A stretch of DNA of 46,736 nucleotides from a virus, in the IMG/VR virus record IMGVR_UViG_3300009085_000755, positions 1 to 46,736 of that record; one strand, 5' to 3'. Below, in pieces: positions 3,352-29,251 of the stretch. Below the pieces are notes generated by a model, which was given only the letters and a program-made list of their open reading frames with translations, did not search any database and was not told where the DNA came from. Position 1 is the stretch's first letter, and each line of letters opens with the position of its first letter. Position numbers and translations under genes: made by a program.

Positions 3352-4829
3352 GCATTGCAACCGCCGTCAAGGCTCTGGTGCCAACGTATCTGCGAAGAGG
3401 CGGGAAGCCAAAGCCGCCAGCCGCGCAACCCGTCGCCGAATCCCCACCGCTGAAGGCATCCTACGACCTGGCCGGCGATGGAACATGGAACGCGAACCAT
3501 TGGGCTGTGAGCGATTCCTACGACGCCGACAGCGCGAACTCGCTATCTGTCCGTCAACGGCTTGTGACCAGGAGCCGGCAAGAGACCGCGAATAACGGCT
3601 ACGTCGATGGCATGACCACGACGCACGCCGATTACTTGATCCGCTCGGGGCCGACGCTGCAAGTTTTGACCGGAGCCGACGGATTCAACACGGCCGTGGA
3701 AACCGTCTGGCAGCAGTGGTCCGCAGCGATCCAACTACGCCGCAAACTCTGGGTGATGGCCCACGCGAAGGTTCAGGACGGCGAGCCGATCGGTATCGTC
3801 CGAGAGAATCCCCGGGTGCCGCACCCTGTGACGCTGGATATTGTGGTGTGTGAAACCGAGCAATGCCAGACGCCGATGCTGCCGTGGGACGAAGTTGGCT
3901 ACATCGACGGCATCAAGTTCGATCAGTGGGGCAACCCCGAACACTACGATTTGCTGCCGCATCACCCAGGATCGGCGTGGGGCTACTTGTCCGCCGAACC
4001 GGAGCACGTTCCGGCCGACTGGGTTCTCCATTGGTTTCTCGCCAAGCGTGGCGGGCAGCATCGGGGCGTGCCTGAATTGACGGCAACGCACAACCTCGGG
4101 GCGGCCGGGCGCCGGCATCGTGAAAGCACCCTGGCGGCCGGTGAAGCGGCGGCAAGTATTTCCGCAATCGTGAAGACGCAAGCCTCGCCGGACATCGTAC
4201 CGCGTTCGCTGGCCGCGCCGTGGTCATCGGTGCCGATGCAGAAAAACGCCTTCATCGCTCTCCCCGCTCTCTATGACATGATGCAGATGCGAGCCGAGCA
4301 TCCCAATGCGACCTACAACGAATTTCAGACGCGCATCATCGGGGAAGAGGGCCGCCCGCTGTCCATGCCTTACAGCGTTTCGGCGTGCGATCACAGCAAC
4401 GACTCATACGCCTCTGGCAAGTTGAATCACCAGCCGTGGTTTATCCGCATGGATAACGACCGGATGGACTGCAACGACTTGGTTCTGGACAAGGCGTTTG
4501 CGAAGTTCTGGCGGTTTGCGTGCCTCGCTTACGGGTGGAATGCTGATCCAGACAGGCCCCCGGCGCATCGCTGGGCATGGCCGCGGCACCCGGTGGCAGA
4601 CGTTGAGAGCGAAGCCAACGCGAACAAGACGAAGCTGAGCAGCGGGCAAACGACGTTGACCAGGCTCTACGACGATTACGGGCTCGACTACGAAACCGAG
4701 ATCGTACAGATGGCTGCGGACTTCGGATTCACCGTTCCTGAAATGAAAAAGCTGCTGGCACAAGCCATCTTCACCAACGGAAACCCGCTGCCGGGAGACA
4801 GGCCGCAAGCGGCTGGAGGTGTCACATGA
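3348..4829 (+). CDS. portal protein (lambda gpB family)
   Basis: Portal vertex subunit, 493 aa: the dodecameric ring through which DNA passes. Seen: the lambda-portal signature of a mixed alpha/beta core with WxxW-rich stretches (AVETVWQQWS), the conserved stem segment around GDEVGYIDGIKFDQWGNP (near residue 185-202) and the GVPELTATHNLG segment after a WFLAKRGGQHRG crown. Gene order terminase, gpW, portal, protease/capsid matches lambda. ATGA overlaps on both sides point to one transcriptional unit with coupled translation. Confidence 0.93.
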   Translation: MSIATAVKALVPTYLRRGGKPKPPAAQPVAESPPLKASYDLAGDGTWNANHWAVSDSYDADSANSLSVRQRLVTRSRQETANNGYVDGMTTTHADYLIRSGPTLQVLTGADGFNTAVETVWQQWSAAIQLRRKLWVMAHAKVQDGEPIGIVRENPRVPHPVTLDIVVCETEQCQTPMLPWDEVGYIDGIKFDQWGNPEHYDLLPHHPGSAWGYLSAEPEHVPADWVLHWFLAKRGGQHRGVPELTATHNLGAAGRRHRESTLAAGEAAASISAIVKTQASPDIVPRSLAAPWSSVPMQKNAFIALPALYDMMQMRAEHPNATYNEFQTRIIGEEGRPLSMPYSVSACDHSNDSYASGKLNHQPWFIRMDNDRMDCNDLVLDKAFAKFWRFACLAYGWNADPDRPPAHRWAWPRHPVADVESEANANKTKLSSGQTTLTRLYDDYGLDYETEIVQMAADFGFTVPEMKKLLAQAIFTNGNPLPGDRPQAAGGVT

Positions 4830-7096
4830 AAGCTGTATGCCCTGATTGCGGGTGTAAGTTCGAGGCGTTCGAGCAAGCATCAAAGCCGGACCATTGCACA
4901 TGCCACGAGCGGGATAGTTCGTTTGCCTGTGAATACTGTCACTCGCAAGGCATTTTCGGCCACATGGAAAAACTGCGAGCCGCGCACGACAAAATCGGGA
5001 TCAGCTGGACTGCTCCCGTGCTACTTGCCGCTGCCGAAGAGGGCCAGCCGCGCCGATGGTCCGCACGGGCGTACAACGGCGGGCCGATGCGAGTAACCTC
5101 ACCAAAACTCGACGCGCCGATGGTAGTGGACCTGACCGGCGTCACGTTCTCGCCATCGCTGGTTGCGAACCTGTTTCATGACGACCAGCGAATCGTCGGG
5201 CATGTCACCGACAAGCAGATTGCGGCCGGGGCACTGGACATGGCCGGCATCGTGAGCGGCGGCGGGCCGGATGCTGACCACTTCCTGAAGGCGTCCAGCG
5301 AGGGATTCCCCTGGCAGGCGAGTATTGAAGCAGACAACCTGCGAATCGAAAAACTGGCGGCCGGGAAGTCAGCACAGATCAACGGCCGGACGGTCACCGG
5401 ACCGGCTTACATCGCGAGGAAAGCAAACGTCTACGGTGTCGCGTTCCTCGGGCGCGGGGCCGATGAAGGAACCTCTGTCACACTTGCGGCCGGGGCCGCT
5501 TCACTTTTTGAGGAGAACGACATGGACTATTCCAAGTGGCTGGCGGCTCTCGGCTTCGACGATGAGACGAAGTTGACGGACGCACAGAAGGCGAAACTGA
5601 AGGCTAAGTATGACGGCGAGCAAGCCGACGCACTGAAGGCTGGGCATGACACCAACGCCCCCGCGTTCGACCTGGACGGGCTCAAGGTCGAGTACGCCAA
5701 GCTGGAGGCCGAACTCGAAAAGTTCGCGTTTGAGGCGGCCGGCAAAGTCTCGGCAGAGAAGTTGTCGGCGTTGAAGGCCGGGGCGATGCAAAAGGGCTTG
5801 ACCCTGAAGGCCAACGCGCTGGCCCAAGAGTGGGCTCCCCAGCGGTTCGCTATCGAGGCCATGCCCGTCGTGACGGAGTTGCGGCTCGACTTGATGAAAG
5901 CCGAGGCTCCCAAGGGGCCGGCGATTCACGCGAGCCACGCCGACTTGTCGAACGACGTGTTGTGCGCCGCGATGGCGAGCGAAGTCGGCCTGAACGTGGA
6001 GAAGGACTATCCCGACCAGGTTTTGCAGGCCGCACACACGCTGACGCGCCGCGGCCATTTCGGCATTCAGAAGTTGCTGCTGACGGCGGCCGCGCAGACC
6101 GGTTTCCCCGTTTCGCCGGGTGACCGAATCGACAACGGCAACTACTTCGACGTGATGCAGCACTTGGCTGTCAACACGCCGCTGAAGGCGTCCGCGAGTG
6201 TGCTGAGCGTGACGGGCATACTGTCGAACCTCGCCAACAAGTCGATTCTCGACGGCTTCCTCGGATCAGCTCAGTACAACCTGTGGCGGAAGATCGCTCG
6301 CATCGCCCGCGTGTCGGATTTCAAGACTCACACCTCGTATCGGTTGCTCGACAACATGGAGTACGAGGAGCTGAAGCCGGACGGCTCGATGCGAACCGGG
6401 ACGATCGGCGAAGAGAGCTTCACCCGCAAGGCCAAGACCTACGCGAAGATGTGGAGCTTCACCCGTGAGGACATCATCAACGATGACCTCGGGGCGTTCT
6501 CGGACATGAGAACGCGTCTCGGCCTGGGCGCGATCAAGAAGCTCTCGAAGCTCGCATGGCAGACGTTCATCAACAACTCGGCTTTCTTCACGGCGGCACG
6601 CGGAAACTACATCAGCGGCGCAACCACGAATCTCGGAACAGACCTCGTTGGTTTGGGGCTCGGCGTCAAGGCTTTCAATGCCCTGGCTTCGACCGCCGTT
6701 GCTCCGGCGACCGTCGGCGAGCGGATCGGCGGCCAGCCGTCGATGCTGTTGGTGCCCCCGGAACTCGCTCCGATTGGCCAGCAGATTTACAAGGACATCG
6801 GGGCCGTGGTGGTTTCCGGCGTGAACATCTACGCCGGCAAGTACGAGACCGTCGAAGTGCCTTGGCTCAGTGACAGCAACTACACGGGGTACAGCGCGAC
6901 CGCGTGGTACTTGCTCCGCAGCCCGGCAGAGATGGCCGCGATCGTGGTGTCCTTCCTGAACGGCGTCGAAAGCCCGACGGTCGAAGCCGCGGCGGCCAAC
7001 ATCGGCCGGCTTGGAATCGACATGCACGGCTACCATGACTTCGGAGTCAATCAGGAAGAGTGGCTGTCCGGCGTCAAGAGCAAGGGCTCGGCCTGA
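4826..7096 (+). CDS. fused zinc-ribbon / prohead protease / major capsid protein
   Basis: A 756-residue head protein made of four parts. Residues 1-45: cysteine-rich, zinc-ribbon-like (CPDC, CTC, CEYC). Residues about 85-225: protease-like, with NLFHDDQRIVGHV (His118) and PWQASIEA (Ser166) in the order of the HK97-type serine protease. Residues about 230-370: charged, helical scaffold-like region (KLTDAQKAKLKAKYDG). Residues about 380-756: capsid domain with the Mu gpT-like block SFTREDIINDDLGAFSDM. In most phages protease, scaffold and capsid are separate genes. Here a single chain would have to cut itself free. Start ATG 4826 overlaps the portal stop. Confidence 0.88.
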   Translation: MKAVCPDCGCKFEAFEQASKPDHCTCHERDSSFACEYCHSQGIFGHMEKLRAAHDKIGISWTAPVLLAAAEEGQPRRWSARAYNGGPMRVTSPKLDAPMVVDLTGVTFSPSLVANLFHDDQRIVGHVTDKQIAAGALDMAGIVSGGGPDADHFLKASSEGFPWQASIEADNLRIEKLAAGKSAQINGRTVTGPAYIARKANVYGVAFLGRGADEGTSVTLAAGAASLFEENDMDYSKWLAALGFDDETKLTDAQKAKLKAKYDGEQADALKAGHDTNAPAFDLDGLKVEYAKLEAELEKFAFEAAGKVSAEKLSALKAGAMQKGLTLKANALAQEWAPQRFAIEAMPVVTELRLDLMKAEAPKGPAIHASHADLSNDVLCAAMASEVGLNVEKDYPDQVLQAAHTLTRRGHFGIQKLLLTAAAQTGFPVSPGDRIDNGNYFDVMQHLAVNTPLKASASVLSVTGILSNLANKSILDGFLGSAQYNLWRKIARIARVSDFKTHTSYRLLDNMEYEELKPDGSMRTGTIGEESFTRKAKTYAKMWSFTREDIINDDLGAFSDMRTRLGLGAIKKLSKLAWQTFINNSAFFTAARGNYISGATTNLGTDLVGLGLGVKAFNALASTAVAPATVGERIGGQPSMLLVPPELAPIGQQIYKDIGAVVVSGVNIYAGKYETVEVPWLSDSNYTGYSATAWYLLRSPAEMAAIVVSFLNGVESPTVEAAAANIGRLGIDMHGYHDFGVNQEEWLSGVKSKGSA

Positions 7097-20163: not shown

Positions 20164-20409
20164 ATGACCGAGAGAATCGAGCGATGTGAAACGTGCCGCT
20201 GGCTAGAGTGCGATACCAGCGTCACGTGCCTCGATCACTGCCACCGACATGCGCCTCCGGCCTACGTGTGCGCGCCCGGCGAACCGGTTCGGGAGGCGGC
20301 TTGGCCCGTCGTCGCGCTGTCCGACTGGTGCGGCGAGTACCAACCTACCCCGCCCGCGGCGGCAACCAGCCACGCGGCCGGTAGTGTTTGCGGTCCAGGT
20401 AATACCTGA
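20164..20409 (+). CDS. small Cys/His-rich protein
   Basis: 81 aa. Two CxxC-like groups (CETCRW near residue 8; CLDHCHRHAP near residue 22) and a closing SDWCGEY give a zinc-binding look that recurs in small phage proteins. ATG 20164 follows GGGAAACTGACC. The 3' end overlaps the integrase gene on the other strand by 65 nt, so the last 20 residues may not be constrained. Function unknown. Confidence 0.6.
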   Translation: MTERIERCETCRWLECDTSVTCLDHCHRHAPPAYVCAPGEPVREAAWPVVALSDWCGEYQPTPPAAATSHAAGSVCGPGNT

Positions 20410-21157
20410 CCATTTCCGGGGACCGGTGGCCGAGGTACTCCCGCGCGGCGTCTACTCCATGCTCGACAGCAACCCACGTCGCCCCCGTGCGGCGGAGCTG
20501 CTGCAGGCCCCCATGATCATTCACCCCGGCAATCTGCCGGACACGAGCCCATACCTGCCGGTACTTCCTTGGCCCCCACGGGCAGGCGAGCGGGTGGGCG
20601 CCGGGCCGGGTGAGGATTCTCTTGACCGTTTCCGGCCGCAAGCGGGGCTCGTGCGCGTACCCTGTTTTCCGCTGCCGTAGCCGGATGACTTCCCCGATTT
20701 GCTCCCGAGCGAGCCCCTGCAGGTCACCTTTTCGGATTCCCGCCTCGTATCCGGCAGCAATCAGCGTCCCGAGGTATTCGCCTTCCGGCCCGCCAATCTG
20801 ATCGCAGGCCGCCAGCAGCCGCCCCACCTCGTCCGGCGTCCAGGCTACGGGCTGCGGATCTGGCGCCCGTTCGCGCCGGACTTCGCCGGGCGGTTTGCAG
20901 TAGCCACGCCTGGCCGCGAACCGCCAGAGGCAGAGAATCCGTGTCCGATGGCCCGCCAGCGTGGCGGCTTTCTGTTGCGGTTCCAGCGATTCCAACCACT
21001 GGCTGACAACCAGGTCGGTCAAGTCGCTGGCGACGGCGCCGCGGCCAAGGTGGGCCGTGAACAGGGCGACGGTGCGGCGCATCAGGTACGCCGCGCCGGA
21101 TGACAGGGGCCGGACGGTTTGGTATTCGGCTCGGATTCGCTCAAGGGTGCAACTCAT
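20345..21157 (-). CDS. int: tyrosine recombinase (integrase)
   Basis: 270 aa. N-terminal SAM-like core-binding domain (residues about 1-95), then the catalytic domain: Arg142 in YEAGIRKGDLQGL, Lys164 in RQRKTG, Arg222 in LQQLRRTGATW, His244 in YLGHRSPEMV and Tyr253 in RYYLD. The usual His of box II (HxxR) is Gln219, an accepted variation but worth noting. Integrates phage DNA at attP. An attP core matching the 3' part of a tRNA-Gly gene lies 66 nt upstream of its start. ATG 21157 is chosen over TTG 21163. No separate excisionase was recognised. Confidence 0.92.
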   Translation of the reverse strand: MSCTLERIRAEYQTVRPLSSGAAYLMRRTVALFTAHLGRGAVASDLTDLVVSQWLESLEPQQKAATLAGHRTRILCLWRFAARRGYCKPPGEVRRERAPDPQPVAWTPDEVGRLLAACDQIGGPEGEYLGTLIAAGYEAGIRKGDLQGLAREQIGEVIRLRQRKTGYAHEPRLRPETVKRILTRPGAHPLACPWGPRKYRQVWARVRQIAGVNDHGGLQQLRRTGATWVAVEHGVDAAREYLGHRSPEMVRYYLDRKHYRPRGWLPPRAG

Positions 21158-21159
21158 GG

Positions 21160-21185
21160 GCAACCAAACGTAGCACGCTGGTTGC
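21160..21185. promoter_or_regulatory. inverted repeat between integrase start and attP
   Basis: Perfect 7-bp inverted repeat GCAACCA (21160-21166) and TGGTTGC (21179-21185) with 12 nt between. It sits on the first bases upstream of the integrase gene, fitting an arm-type integrase site or an operator for int. Confidence 0.45.
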
Positions 21186-22115: not shown

Positions 22116-22361
22116 ATGAAACCAATGAAACGCGAACAGGCTTTCGTTGCCACACTGCGGCGCGAGATCCAAACCGGCACCATCACGAAGTTCGGCCTTG
22201 CCAAGACGGCCGGAATTTCACGCTCGCACTTGGACAAGATCCTTGCTGGGGATTGCCGGCTGTCATTGGAACTTGCGGACACCCTGGCAGACGCCATCGG
22301 CCAACCACTGGAAGAAATGATTGCCGACAAATCGAATCAGCGCGAAGCAGTCGCCGTCTAA
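22116..22361 (+). CDS. small HTH repressor (Cro/C1 type)
   Basis: 81 aa with one helix-turn-helix: TKFGLAKTAGISRSHLDKIL (residues about 25-44) is the recognition unit, followed by the usual ELADTLADAIGQPLEEMI dimer helix. No C-terminal cleavage domain, so it is not a RecA-cleavable CI; more like Cro or a Xre-type C1. GGAG lies just upstream of ATG 22116, but would be outside a transcript made from 22079-22110; ATG 22125 is a possible alternative. Two matching operators frame the gene, so it very likely represses itself and its neighbour. Confidence 0.82.
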   Translation: MKPMKREQAFVATLRREIQTGTITKFGLAKTAGISRSHLDKILAGDCRLSLELADTLADAIGQPLEEMIADKSNQREAVAV

Positions 22362-24376: not shown

Positions 24377-24510
24377 TGTGGGGCGTATTCTCAAAACACG
24401 GCTATCTTCTCGGATCGTTTCGCAACGTGGCGTACGCGATACAGGCGCTCTACCGCTGGCGCGATGCGTCGGACATCCGAGAAATTCACGAAGGGAGCAT
24501 GGAGCGATGA
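24376..24510 (+). CDS. hypothetical protein, 44 aa
   Basis: Coupled at both ends: ATG 24376 overlaps the exonuclease stop, and its own stop overlaps the RecT-like start (ATGA). Reads MWGVFSKHGYLLGSFRNVAY then AIQALYRWRDASDIRE. Aromatic and amphipathic; probably a small partner protein. Unrecognised. Confidence 0.6.
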   Translation: MWGVFSKHGYLLGSFRNVAYAIQALYRWRDASDIREIHEGSMER

Positions 24511-25655
24511 ACGAACTGTCAGTATATGAACGAATGCCAGACCCTCTACGGGCGATTGAAGTGCTCGGCGAAATCGTAGCCAAGAGCAGGATCTTTAATT
24601 GCGAAAGCATCGAGCAGGGCAAGATCATGGCCTGGGAATGTCTCGCCCGCCGAACCCCGCCGCTGCAACTCAAGGAAACGTATCACCTCATCAACACCGG
24701 GCAGGGGGCCGCTCTCACCATGCGTGCTGACGCGATGCTAGCCGGCTTCCTATCGATCGGCGGGCGGCACAGGATCTTGCAACGCGACGGGGACCGGGCG
24801 GCGGTCGAGTTGTCCCACGCTGGCCAGACGGTGGCATTTGAATGCACTTACGCGGACGCGAAAGAGGCCGGACTGACTGAAGGCAAGAAAGGTGAGAAAG
24901 AAAACTGGAGCAGCCCGCGGCAACGGATGCAAATGCTGTGGGCTCGGGTTATCAGCGATGGAGTTCGCGCGATGGCCCCGCAGGTGTGTGCAGGGAAGTA
25001 CACCCCGGAGGATTTCGGCCAACGGATTGGCGACGATGGAGCGAGTGGAGTGATTGACGGGGAGGCCGTCAGCTACGTGGTCGAGAGTTCGGCGCCGACG
25101 GCGGCGGTGGAATCCGCCAGGATGGAGCCGGCCGGGACGGAACCGGCTGGAAAGGATACCGGCAACGCGGCGCCGGACTCGGCCACGAAGGAATGCACGT
25201 CCGCCCAGCGACGGCAGATAACCGATCTGTTTGAGCAACTCGGCCTGACGCTGGAACAGCGGTCAATGGTGCTGACGAAGCGAGGCGTTTCTTCTCTGCG
25301 GTCTCTCACGTTCGGCCAGGCGTCTGAACTACTGACCAACCTGGAGCGGAGGGCCGCGGAGCAAGAGCAATCCAGGCAGCCGGCCGAGGTCTATCAGGCT
25401 CCCGTCGCCGGGCCGTGCTCGCAGGGGCAGATTGACGAACTGAAACGGGATTTACTGCCGGCGCTATCACAGAGCGACCAAGAACTCTACCAGAAGCTGC
25501 ACGCGAAGTTGAAGGCGTTTGGCAAAATTCGCGATTTGAGTTTCGAGCAGGCCCGCGCCCTGATTGAACAAGTCAAAGCGAAAAACCTGGAGGCGTTCTT
25601 TGCCGCCAGCTTGGTCAAGGGATCGCCGTCGAATCAGGACGACATCCCTTTCTAG
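24507..25655 (+). CDS. RecT-like single-strand annealing protein with SSB-type tip
   Basis: 382 aa. Core at residues about 35-170: MAWECLARRTPPLQL, LTMRADAMLAGF, then SSPRQRMQMLWARVISDGVRAMAPQVCAG with KYTPEDF. This is the order in RecT-related proteins of phages. After a long linker comes a helical domain (CTSAQRRQITDLFEQLGL and a repeat-like CSQGQIDELKRDLL). The chain ends SNQDDIPF, the same acidic tip that bacterial SSB uses to recruit partners. The last codons form a slippery CCCTTTC before the stop, and the -1 frame stays open (see 25652-25792). Confidence 0.78.
   Translation: MNELSVYERMPDPLRAIEVLGEIVAKSRIFNCESIEQGKIMAWECLARRTPPLQLKETYHLINTGQGAALTMRADAMLAGFLSIGGRHRILQRDGDRAAVELSHAGQTVAFECTYADAKEAGLTEGKKGEKENWSSPRQRMQMLWARVISDGVRAMAPQVCAGKYTPEDFGQRIGDDGASGVIDGEAVSYVVESSAPTAAVESARMEPAGTEPAGKDTGNAAPDSATKECTSAQRRQITDLFEQLGLTLEQRSMVLTKRGVSSLRSLTFGQASELLTNLERRAAEQEQSRQPAEVYQAPVAGPCSQGQIDELKRDLLPALSQSDQELYQKLHAKLKAFGKIRDLSFEQARALIEQVKAKNLEAFFAASLVKGSPSNQDDIPF
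25646..25652 (+). other. candidate -1 slippery site CCCTTTC
   Basis: C CCT TTC in the reading frame of the RecT-like gene, followed at once by TAG (25653-25655). It satisfies X XXY YYZ. Slipping back one base gives CCC TTT CTA and enters the open frame up to 25792. The motif also arises naturally from the codons for Ile-Pro-Phe, so chance is possible. Confidence 0.5.
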
Positions 25656-25792
25656 TTCGTCCGCTCGTTGATCGCTACGGGCGGGAGAAAGTTATTCAGG
25701 CTTGGGAGAGGATTCACGGCTGCCCGCTCTCCTGGGCCAACGATCCGAGAGAAGTTTTTGCGGTAGCCGAAACACTCAACACGAAGGGATAG
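25652..25792 (+). CDS. -1 frame extension of the RecT-like protein
   Basis: 46 codons reading LVRPLVDRYGREKVIQAWER, then IHGCPLSWANDPREVFAVAE and a short tail, stop TAG at 25790-25792. The composition is that of a real helical domain, not of a shadow frame. The -1 frame holds no ATG, GTG or TTG between its upstream stop (in the 25550s-25560s) and this stretch, so independent start of translation is unlikely. It may form the C-terminus of a longer annealing protein without the free DDIPF tip. Confidence 0.5.
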   Translation, partial: LVRPLVDRYGREKVIQAWERIHGCPLSWANDPREVFAVAETLNTKG

Positions 25793-25797
25793 GAATC

Positions 25798-26469
25798 ATG
25801 GCTCTTGAATTTGACGCACCAGACAATTTCGACCAGGAAGGCAACGGACTGCGCGAGGCCGGCAAGTATCACTGTGTGGTCTTGGCCGTCGAGGAGAATC
25901 CGACGAACAAGGACGGCAAGCTGATCGACAACGCCGTGTTTCGGGCATCGCTGGCGGTGCTGGACGGCACGACGCCGGGCCAGAAGGATAAGCAGTTCGA
26001 CTTGATTTTCTTTGCGCCGAAGATGACACACAAAGACCGCGGGGAAATGGCGAAAAAGAAGATCTGGTTTTTCGCCAGCAGCATCGGCTGTGGTTCGATC
26101 GTCAACGGCCGGATGGTGCTCGACTTCGCGCAGGCCGTGGGCCGGCAGACGTGCATGGACATTGAGATCCAGGAGCGGAAATACAAGGACAACAACGAAG
26201 CGGAGAAGGTTGCGCATGAGCCGTCTCTCATTTACTGCAACGTCTACCACGTCGATGACCCTCGGGTGAAGGATTGGCCGAAAGACGCTGTTTCGCTGAG
26301 TCTGTATTCGCCTGAACTGCGGAAAAAGCCGGAAGAGTTCGCCGCTGCCACGAAGAAAGCAGACGGCAACGGCAACGGCAACGGCGGAACGGCTGGCAAG
26401 ACCGCACCGAAGCAACCGCAGCAGCCGGCGAAACCGTCTGGCGCAGCTTTCAACGTAGACGAATTGTAG
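25798..26469 (+). CDS. DUF669-like single-stranded DNA-binding protein
   Basis: 223 aa. ATG 25798 follows GGATAGGAATC. Residues 1-150 show the DUF669/phage SSB-like pattern: AGKYHCVVLAVEENPTNKDG, then KQFDLIFFAPKMTHKDR and an OB-fold-like order of strands. A disordered linker (GNGNGNGGTAGKTAPKQPQQ) leads to an acidic tail FNVDEL. This linker-plus-tip build is that of SSBs. Next to RecT-like and RecD2 genes it should coat ssDNA. Confidence 0.72.
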   Translation: MALEFDAPDNFDQEGNGLREAGKYHCVVLAVEENPTNKDGKLIDNAVFRASLAVLDGTTPGQKDKQFDLIFFAPKMTHKDRGEMAKKKIWFFASSIGCGSIVNGRMVLDFAQAVGRQTCMDIEIQERKYKDNNEAEKVAHEPSLIYCNVYHVDDPRVKDWPKDAVSLSLYSPELRKKPEEFAAATKKADGNGNGNGGTAGKTAPKQPQQPAKPSGAAFNVDEL

Positions 26470-26640: not shown

Positions 26641-26901
26641 ATGACGCGACAACCAGAAGCATCTGCAGACGCGATGATCCGTTGGGGCGGTGACTACGAC
26701 GCCCGTTGCGTAGAGAGACTGTCAACGTTTGAGCAATGGGGCATCTCTGACGCGAAAGCCGGCTTGCCGATGCTGCGGACATTCGGCCACCTGGGGACGG
26801 GCTACTCGTCAGCGGAAGGCACGCGATACGAAAAAGGGTATCGGTCGATCCTGAGCGTGACCGAAGAGGCGGAAATGCTGAGACAGAAGAGGTTGTTCTA
26901 G
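26641..26901 (+). CDS. hypothetical protein, 86 aa
   Basis: ATG 26641; the frame is open further left, but the 170 nt before it (26470-26640) are not protein-like. Reads MTRQPEASADAMIRWGGDYD and LPMLRTFGHLGTGYSSAEGT. The stop overlaps the GTG of the RecD2 N-terminal gene (TAGTG). No family recognised. A weak ribosome site makes the start somewhat uncertain. Confidence 0.5.
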   Translation: MTRQPEASADAMIRWGGDYDARCVERLSTFEQWGISDAKAGLPMLRTFGHLGTGYSSAEGTRYEKGYRSILSVTEEAEMLRQKRLF

Positions 26902-27926
26902 TGGCGGCTCTAACCGAAATCTCTGGCATCTTCATCCGCGAATTCCAGCGGTGGGACGCGACGGCCATGCTGTCGGTTGAGATGCCAGTGCAAACTGGAC
27001 TGGCCGAGGTTATGGGAGAGCAGATGCAGACCGACGTAACCGTGAAGCTGGATTGCGACCCAGGCGAACTGCTGCCGGACCAGGAGTATCGGTTTATCGG
27101 CCAGTGGCGGGATCATCGAAAATACGGCCGCCAGTTTCACGCTTCCTCGTTCGCCTTGATCCAGCCCCACACCCGGCAGGGCGTTATCCGATACCTCGTA
27201 CACGCTGGCCAGGGGTTGCGATTCGGCCTGGTGCGCGCCGCCGCTCTCTATGACGAATGGGGGCAAGACGCGGTGCGGATCGCCCGCGAGAAGCCGGCAG
27301 AAGTTTGCCAACTGCTGGCCAGCCGTCGGCTTCAATTTGACCACGCCGCGGCGGTGAACTTGTCAACACGGCTCGGTGACGACGCGGCCCTGGAAGCGAC
27401 CACGCTGGACGTCCTCGACCTGCTGACCGGGAGAGGCTTCCCAAGAGCGACGGTGCGCGACGTGGTGAAGGAATGGGGGGCCGACGCCGCACAGAGGATC
27501 AGACGCGACCCATACAAATTGATGAAGTTCCGGGGGTGCGGATTCAAGCGGTGTGACGCGATGTGGATTGAGCTGGGGCTGCCACCGGGCCGGTTGAAGC
27601 GGCAAGCACTGGCGGCATGGTACGCGATTCACAGTGACACTGACGGGCACACCTGGTATCCAGCCACGGTGGCTGAGCGAGCCATCCACGCGAACGTTGG
27701 CGGGGCTGATGTGGACACGGTGAAGGCCATGCGGCTGGCGAGACTTGGGGGCCGGCTGGCAGAAGTGCAGACGGACGGACGAGGGGCGATTTATCGGCAA
27801 CCCAACGGCAATGGGCAAGGGGTTGGGATGCGATGGGTTGCTGAGAAAAGAGCGGCGGAGAATGAACGGGAGATTGCGGAGATCGTCGCAGGAGCGATGG
27901 GGGAGGGAGTGAAATGGCCGGCTTAA
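26901..27926 (+). CDS. recD2: RecD2-like helicase, N-terminal part
   Basis: 341 aa. Seen: an OB-like start (EISGIFIREFQRWDATAMLS, DQEYRFIGQWRDHRKYGRQF) and then the helix-hairpin-helix-rich region of RecD2 (RDPYKLMKFRGCGFKRCDAM). It holds what lies before the motor in RecD2 and no Walker motif. The next gene, starting in another frame with a 13-nt overlap, holds the motor. The two likely form one enzyme, split at the domain border. Confidence 0.78.
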   Translation: MAALTEISGIFIREFQRWDATAMLSVEMPVQTGLAEVMGEQMQTDVTVKLDCDPGELLPDQEYRFIGQWRDHRKYGRQFHASSFALIQPHTRQGVIRYLVHAGQGLRFGLVRAAALYDEWGQDAVRIAREKPAEVCQLLASRRLQFDHAAAVNLSTRLGDDAALEATTLDVLDLLTGRGFPRATVRDVVKEWGADAAQRIRRDPYKLMKFRGCGFKRCDAMWIELGLPPGRLKRQALAAWYAIHSDTDGHTWYPATVAERAIHANVGGADVDTVKAMRLARLGGRLAEVQTDGRGAIYRQPNGNGQGVGMRWVAEKRAAENEREIAEIVAGAMGEGVKWPA

Positions 27927-29251
27927 CCTCCCACCAATCCGCCGAACTTCGCCGCGCTACCTCCGGCCCGATCGGGATCCTCGGGGGCGGACCAGGGACC
28001 GGTAAGACGTTCACCGTCGCCTGCCTCGTCGAATCGCTGGCCAGCACGGTCGGGCTCGACAACATCTGCATCGGGGCCCCGACGGGCAAGGCCGCTGTGA
28101 GAGTCACGGAGGTAATGCAGAAAGCCGGGCTGCCGATCCGGGCTCGGACGTGGCATAGCATCTTGCGTGGCGGAACGGATTCTGGGTTCGAGTTCGACCG
28201 GAAGAACCCGCTGCCGTTTTCCGTGCTGATCGGTGACGAATCCTCAATGGTGGATACCGATTTGATGGCCGGCATTCTCCGAGCCCGCCCGCGCGGCTGC
28301 CTTTGCTTGCTTGTGGGCGACGTCCATCAATTGCCGCCCGTGGGCGGAGGTGCCCCCCTGCGAGATTTTATAGCCAGCGGCCTTCCCTACGGCGAACTAA
28401 CCGAAATCAAACGCAACAGCGGCGGCATCGTGGAAGCGTGCCACGCGATACGACAGGGCAAGCCGTGGGAGTGCGGGGACAATCTGAAGCTGGTTGACAG
28501 GCAAAGCCCGGAATTTCAAATCAAGGCCATGTTGGAAACGATACACCAGCAGGGTACGTACACATCTCCACTCGACCCGATCAACGACGTTCAGGTGCTG
28601 GCCGCCGTCAACGAGAAATCACCGCTGGCCAGAAAGACGCTCAACGCGATTCTGCAGGGAGAGTTGAACGCAGGCGGACAGAAGGCCAGCGGCAACCCGT
28701 TCCGCGTTGGCGACAAAATCGTCTGCTTGAAAAACGGCCGTTACAAGGCCTTGGAATACGACGCCGCGAACCCCGACCTGGATGCGAACGAACGGGACGA
28801 GGTTTATGTCGCGAACGGAGAACTCGCCCGCGTGCTGGACGTGGAACCGGGTAGCACGACGGCCCGGCTGGAGAATCCGACCCGCGTGGTGAGAATCCCG
28901 CGCGGCGGCGGAGATGCCAGCCAGGCGGAAGGCGAAGGCGGAGAGCAGGCGGCGGAATCAGGGGCCGGCTGCAATTGGGATCTTGGGTTCTGCCTTTCGG
29001 TCCACAAATCGCAGGGCAGCGAGTGGCCGATCGTTATTACCATGCTCGATGACTACCCCGGCGCTCGCATGGTCTGCAGCCGCGAACTTCTCTATACGGC
29101 CATCAGCCGGGCCAAGGATCGGCAATACCTGATCGGCCGGAAGGCCACGGCAGATGCGATGGTGAGTAGGCCAGCGATTTGGAAAAGGAAAACGTTTTTG
29201 CGGGAGCGGATTTTGATGGAACGGGCCAAGCTGGAGATTGCGGAATTATGA
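27914..29251 (+). CDS. recD2: RecD2-like helicase, motor part (SF1B)
   Basis: 445 aa. Walker A GGPGTGKT (residues 25-32), Walker B IGDESSMVD, motif III VGDVHQLPPVG, RKTL-type motif, and motif VI LLYTAISRAKD. The SF1B order of RecD-type 5'-3' helicases is complete. ATG 27914 behind GGAGTGAAATGG, overlapping the N-terminal gene by 13 nt. A charged, Gly/Glu-rich insert (about residues 330-350) is unusual. The stop overlaps the ERCC4-type nuclease gene (ATGA). Confidence 0.92.
   Translation: MAGLTSHQSAELRRATSGPIGILGGGPGTGKTFTVACLVESLASTVGLDNICIGAPTGKAAVRVTEVMQKAGLPIRARTWHSILRGGTDSGFEFDRKNPLPFSVLIGDESSMVDTDLMAGILRARPRGCLCLLVGDVHQLPPVGGGAPLRDFIASGLPYGELTEIKRNSGGIVEACHAIRQGKPWECGDNLKLVDRQSPEFQIKAMLETIHQQGTYTSPLDPINDVQVLAAVNEKSPLARKTLNAILQGELNAGGQKASGNPFRVGDKIVCLKNGRYKALEYDAANPDLDANERDEVYVANGELARVLDVEPGSTTARLENPTRVVRIPRGGGDASQAEGEGGEQAAESGAGCNWDLGFCLSVHKSQGSEWPIVITMLDDYPGARMVCSRELLYTAISRAKDRQYLIGRKATADAMVSRPAIWKRKTFLRERILMERAKLEIAEL

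Follow-up and report, generated by a model that had tools for sequence, protein, structure and literature searches.

Candidate programmed -1 frameshifting at the 3' ends of annealing protein genes in little-known phages

The gene for a RecT-like annealing protein in a viral contig (IMG/VR record IMGVR_UViG_3300009085_000755, positions 1 to 46,736; the whole stretch of 46,736 nucleotides is hereafter termed the window) ends in a slippery heptamer, beyond which the -1 frame stays open. Does this gene encode one protein or two? Here we compare the locus with its homologues, and the comparison makes it very probable that programmed -1 ribosomal frameshifting yields two proteins from it.

Slip site and reading frames of the window locus

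The RecT-like gene (24507-25655; the locus is hereafter W) ends in GAC GAC ATC CCT TTC TAG, and its 0-frame protein in ...NQDDIPF. Within ATC CCT TTC TAG (25644-25655), the last base of ATC together with CCT TTC forms the heptamer C_CCT_TTC (25646-25652). The heptamer is in the right phase for tandem -1 slippage and is adjoined by the stop codon (25653-25655), exactly as an earlier note on this DNA had it. The -1 frame is open from stop to stop (25568 to 25792). After the slip it reads CTA GTT CGT and continues for 46 codons (25652-25789) to TAG (25790-25792). That this frame has no start codon of its own, also claimed earlier, is likewise exact: ATG, GTG and TTG are missing over its whole length, and so is CTG. 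The ATG of the next gene (25798) lies five bases past the stop of the extension. Among the open reading frames of at least 80 amino acids in the window, the RecT-like gene is the single one that combines a heptamer at the stop with an open -1 extension. The elements of the locus are as follows.

24507..25655, + strand: RecT-like single-strand annealing protein (predicted), 0-frame product of 382 aa, stop TAG at 25653-25655
25638..25652, + strand: codons of the SSB-like tip, DDIPF (from sequence)
25646..25652, + strand: slippery heptamer C_CCT_TTC, abutting the stop on its 5' side (from sequence and homologue comparison)
25653..25655, + strand: 0-frame stop codon TAG
25657..25688, + strand: predicted stimulatory hairpin of -16.3 kcal/mol; core stem of 9 bp (25660-25668/25677-25685), 7 nt past the heptamer
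25652..25792, + strand: -1 frame extension, 46 codons (LVRPLVDRYGREKVIQAWERIHGCPLSWANDPREVFAVAETLNTKG) and stop, predicted three-helix domain (from frame, alignment and AlphaFold)
25798..26469, + strand: DUF669/phrog_378-like single-strand DNA-binding protein, 223 aa, tail NVDEL (from weak profile matches)

Recurrence of slip site and extension in related loci

In an alignment-based scan, relatives of the N-terminal domain numbered in the hundreds; we fetched 80 of them and read their 3' ends. Later scans with a clade-specific motif and with the extension were continued until no new contigs appeared. Fifteen loci, drawn from different metagenomes and each interrupted at the stop codon, have the extension in the -1 frame (W, L006, L007, L008, L016, L092, L094, L097, L098, L099, L100, L103, L118, L119 and L120). 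L006 and L007, the closest to W, carry GGGAAAC directly before TGA and then a homologous -1 extension; L103 is a stretch in a Planctomycetota MAG. In L119 and L120, the same extension follows, in the -1 frame, a different annealing protein, a Sak4-like AAA ATPase. The ATPase of L120 has a match to AAA_24 (E = 9e-18) and a weak one to Sak4-like annealing proteins, whereas that of L119 matches AAA_24 only weakly.

An HMM of the extension recovered the 15 loci plus L122, L091 and L054/L080, and found no in-frame fusion of the extension to an annealing protein. In L122 (AAA_24, Sak4-like) the extension is in the +1 frame, as it is in the more distant L054/L080 and L091, where it has a possible start of its own. 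The L122 junction (3430-3640) reads TCG AAA AGT TAG, with no ATG, GTG or TTG between junction and domain; it could mark a +1 frameshift on AAAA or else an indel in the sequence. The L091 junction (4925-4960), GGG CCC TTT TGA T, resembles stop-codon +1 sites, and an ATG follows shortly downstream. Scans of viral contigs with the single sequences of the W protein, the extension and the helicase returned nothing, and extension queries against isolated phages and plasmids gave chance-level matches only. A search of 392 Planctomycetota and 396 Acidobacteriota genomes yielded a single true extension (L103), besides a weak match of doubtful standing (L142).

An in-phase X_XXY_YYZ heptamer ends exactly at the stop in 8 of the 15 extension loci: CCCTTTC in W; GGGAAAC in L006, L007 and L092; AAAAAAC in L094, L098 and L099; and CCCTTTT, followed by TGA, in L120. 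The fraction rises to 12 of 15 within 30 nt, with GGGAAAC one codon before the at-stop position in L097, and CCCTTTC, CCCAAAC and AAAAAAC 30 nt earlier in L008, L100 and L119, respectively. No canonical heptamer accompanies the -1 extension of L016, L103 and L118. In L119 (3400-3490), a second AAAAAAC-TGA lies within a short tandem duplication immediately before the slip site. A heptamer at the stop is absent from all 74 homologues that lack the extension (Fisher p = 9e-8 against 8/15), and 5 of the 74 have one within 60 nt, compared with 12 of the 15 extension loci (p = 1e-8); the in-phase background in the bodies of these genes is 0.14% of codons. L098 and L099 are near-identical close relatives and thus not independent, and W had prompted the search; with W and one of that pair removed, 6 of 13 loci still have the heptamer at the stop. 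In W and in 11 of the 14 homologous loci, an in-phase heptamer lies inside the overlap of the two frames, even in L092, where this overlap spans only 10 nt. On these sequences, the association of heptamer and extension is not a matter of chance. The slippery site is present in both of the sisters W and L006 in different letters (CCCTTTC vs GGGAAAC), as selection on slipperiness predicts.

To look for stimulatory signals, we scored at each locus the best simple hairpin whose start lay 4-9 nt past the heptamer, with 150 control positions within the same gene for reference. Over 12 loci the hairpins exceed the controls (combined p = 1.2e-6); that of W is unexceptional on its own (p = 0.15). A version of the test limited to even stem lengths gave a combined p of 0.017 and missed obvious hairpins. 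Neither hairpins nor junctions can be aligned between phages. An SD-like sequence upstream of the slip site is modestly enriched (combined p = 0.008), most clearly in L094, L098 and L099.

The slip signal and the domain thus appear, from sequence, to recur in at least 12 related, little-known phages. The earlier note had proposed that frameshifting gives two forms of the protein, and the recurrence of extension, heptamer, spacing and hairpin in homologues strongly supports this. It had also suggested looking in aligned homologues for conservation of extension and heptamer: both recur among the 15 loci, the heptamer with its letters varied and its slipperiness kept. The two findings that it had named as contrary, homologues that lack the extension and homologues in which the extension has its own start, are both partly present, the first in most annealing-domain homologues and the second, with a possible start and in the +1 frame, in L054/L080 and L091. 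Neither accounts for the slippery sites of the close relatives.

Other readings of the extension

The main task of the frameshift might be to toggle the exposure of an SSB-type tip (DDIPF), a model that follows from the two forms of the earlier note, one with the tip exposed and one with an extra domain. DDIPF is indeed present in W, and DDxPF occurs at three of the -1 sites built on CCCTTTY: as the terminal DDIPF of W, as the terminal DDPPF of the Sak4-like ATPase in L120, and as DDVPF 10 residues before the protein end in L008. The heptamer accounts for PF and not for DD, so SSB mimicry is possible in these three loci, and in the SSB of phage HK620 deletion of the NDYPPF tip strongly lowers Sak4 stimulation (PMC5928155). 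However, W and L120 are the only extension carriers with a terminal tip; most of the carriers end in GN, KN or GK and keep the frameshift all the same, so the tip cannot be its general reason. The phage SSB also has an acidic tail of its own. Comparison of window positions 26400-26469 with the next gene in L006, L008, L016, L091 and L098 showed acidic-hydrophobic tails on these SSB-like (DUF669) proteins (NVDEL, DLNDL, DLDNL, DLSSI, DMDDL and DLDEL), possibly a partner-binding tip in their own right. A tip switch as the main purpose is therefore unlikely, and we retain it as a local possibility that does not explain the frameshift.

On a second reading there is no fusion: the extension would be a small gene in its own right, translated through stop-start coupling, with a non-canonical start that overlaps the stop (the CTG in CTGA). 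The CTGA overlap is found in L006, L007, L008, L092, L094, L099, L103 and L118, in L103 and L118 without any heptamer, and in the distant L054/L080 and L091 the domain has a possible start of its own. No such start exists in W (CTAG), L098 (CTAA), L097, L100 or L119, and W and L119 have no start at all, CTG included; in none of the 15 extension frames does an ATG occur over the 60 nt before the stop or on the way from the stop to the domain. In L119, moreover, the conserved domain begins before the 0-frame stop. As coupling also leaves the slippery heptamers and their phase unexplained, we regard it as quite improbable.

Could the extension be a decaying remnant, or an assembly or sequencing indel, the true gene being a single fused frame or the short form? 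Most annealing-domain homologues lack the extension, and a single record might contain an error, but the same -1 arrangement occurs in 15 loci from different metagenomes with the break always at the stop, and no intact in-frame fusion was found with the extension HMM. Between L098 and L099, the extension has 13 substitutions in 58 codons, distributed 0/1/12 over the codon positions, and 10 of the 12 changed codons are synonymous, a pattern that points to purifying selection on the -1 frame. Selection on the extension of W itself is visible mainly as the retained motif, since its differences from L006 fall at all three codon positions (18/14/29) with no clean synonymous excess. For the family, these findings refute a remnant, pseudogene or assembly error, and we give that reading very little credence. 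Joining of the frames by transcriptional rather than ribosomal slippage, which the runs of at least six A in the AAAAAAC sites of L094, L098, L099 and L119 and the T run of L120 might suggest, we reject as the least credible reading of all, because CCCTTTC and GGGAAAC contain homopolymers of at most three, too short for polymerase slippage, and because phase and hairpin placement fit ribosomal slippage.

Architecture, proposed role and setting

Taken alone, the W protein matches RecT-like PHROGs weakly (E = 0.011 and 0.038), and its assignment as a RecT-like annealing protein, with predicted activity, draws on its relatives and its predicted fold. A tblastn search with W matched gp34 of Verrucomicrobia phage P8625, annotated as RecT-like (E = 8e-18), and relatives match phrog_561, the RecT-like annealing proteins (L095, E = 1e-14; another, 1.5e-5). 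The earlier note's "RecT-like" thus stands by way of these relatives. AlphaFold, run with 28 sequences, gave a confident N-terminal domain (pLDDT 82-98 per block), and the best Foldseek match of the structure was RecT of phage A118 (7ub2, probability 0.97, E = 0.066). Near the top were also the Red-beta C-terminal domain with lambda exonuclease (6m9k, probability 1.00) and with an SSB peptide (8tfu/8tg7, probability 0.99). With every E-value above 0.05, these matches are good leads and not proof. The predicted domains are as follows.

24534..25001, + strand: RecT/Red-beta-like DNA-binding N-terminal domain, residues 10-165 (AlphaFold; Foldseek 7ub2, probability 0.97, E 0.066)
25200..25376, + strand: first C-terminal helical domain, residues 232-290, candidate Red-beta-CTD-like docking domain (AlphaFold, Foldseek)
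25422..25619, + strand: second C-terminal helical domain, residues 306-371 (AlphaFold)

The C-terminal domains may thus resemble the Red-beta domain that binds SSB tips; no sequence-profile link between them and Red-beta was found, so this likeness comes from predicted structure. The extension is predicted by AlphaFold to form three helices (mean pLDDT 92), and an alignment of 17 members has the rough pattern WP..L..LV..YG...V...GL..LGYPPTW.....E...V..AL. It has no significant match in Pfam, PHROGs, PDB sequences, PDB folds or viral fold libraries, and we predict it to be a previously undescribed domain. It sits after C-terminal domains common to RecT-like and Sak4-like carriers, the first helical domain (232-290) being shared by W and the Sak4-like carriers. 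As these shared domains resemble the Red-beta docking domain in predicted structure, the portable unit may comprise a docking domain, a frameshift and a second docking domain.

Comparison of the loci shows a slip site, a coding extension and their co-occurrence across phages and in two annealing-protein families; slippage in cells, its efficiency and its function we infer. In the programmed frameshifting that we favour, most ribosomes would terminate at TAG and release the 382-aa annealing protein. A fraction would pause at CCC-TTT-C, held there by the stop codon that occupies the A site and by the hairpin that lies 7 nt further on; tRNA-Pro and tRNA-Phe would re-pair one base back, and reading would resume with CTA GTT CGT. 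The long product would have 428 aa and end in an additional domain of three helices. With such extended subunits in the minority, each annealing ring or filament would bear a few docking modules and recruit a partner with them, perhaps a host protein, the RecD-like helicase or the phage SSB of the adjacent gene. Red-beta forms oligomeric rings and helical filaments (PMC8034648), which makes a fixed minority of extended subunits a plausible way to provide few partner sites per complex; by analogy, such a role is plausible as in gpG/gpGT or gamma/tau. In the W phage, the short form would also expose the SSB-type tip that the long form buries. Our broadest proposal, to which we give somewhat less than even weight, is that a three-helix docking module moves between unrelated annealing proteins (RecT-like and Sak4-like), mostly attached by frameshifting so that a set fraction of subunits bears it, while some short forms show an SSB-mimicking tip instead: one gene with two partner-recruiting ends.

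To our knowledge, the frameshifts described in tailed phages belong mainly to the genes of tail chaperones and structural proteins. The lambda tail assembly chaperones gpG/gpGT are made by programmed -1 frameshifting (Xu, Hendrix and Duda 2004, as cited in passages of PMC5009743 and PMC6316719). There, as we propose for W, an X_XXY_YYZ site close to the 3' end of the gene adds a C-terminal extension to a minor form of the protein; in both cases the site is kept across divergent phages while the heptamer varies. However, gpG/gpGT is a tail morphogenesis gene, whereas the gene here is one of DNA recombination, the small domain is unrelated, and the heptamer mostly abuts the stop codon. The frameshift of dnaX (tau/gamma), including a predicted reversed case with a stop directly after the shift site (passages of PMC5009743), also brings two versions of a protein of DNA metabolism together in one oligomer, as is proposed here, and has an SD-like sequence upstream and a stem-loop downstream; dnaX, by contrast, encodes a cellular clamp loader, uses A_AAA_AAG and has no homology to the W gene. 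Promiscuous Ig-like domains, which -1 or +1 frameshifts append to structural proteins of phages (same source, in part), are likewise portable, occur on unrelated proteins and use either direction, but they concern structural proteins and an Ig fold rather than recombination proteins and a three-helix domain. The frameshift cases in those passages of PMC5009743 are tail, capsid, IS and dnaX.

Like RecT and Red-beta (phrog_561; 7ub2; 6m9k), W appears to combine an N-terminal annealing domain with a C-terminal docking-like domain; unlike them, it would carry two helical domains in its C-terminal part, a third module added by frameshifting and, optionally, an SSB-like tip. We found no report of frameshifting on annealing proteins or phage recombinases in the open-licence literature; the mechanism is already known, and the gene class and the domain are, within that literature, new. 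Conservation of the probable frameshift on two unrelated recombination-protein families suggests that, in an annealing complex, a fixed minority of the subunits has to bear an extra domain; the same literature gave no sign that such a requirement had been considered. Annealing proteins are the engine of recombineering, and an unannotated stoichiometric partner domain is therefore of practical interest.

Further along the window, a RecD2-like helicase (26901-29251) is split into two ORFs with a 13-nt overlap, an OB/HHH part (26901-27926) and a helicase part (27914-29251), the latter with its own ATG and an SD-like sequence. The helicase is also split in L006 and is a single ORF in L016 and L091. 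A tyrosine integrase (20345-21163, - strand) and a repressor-like HTH protein (22116-22361, + strand) are also encoded in the window, from which the phage looks temperate.
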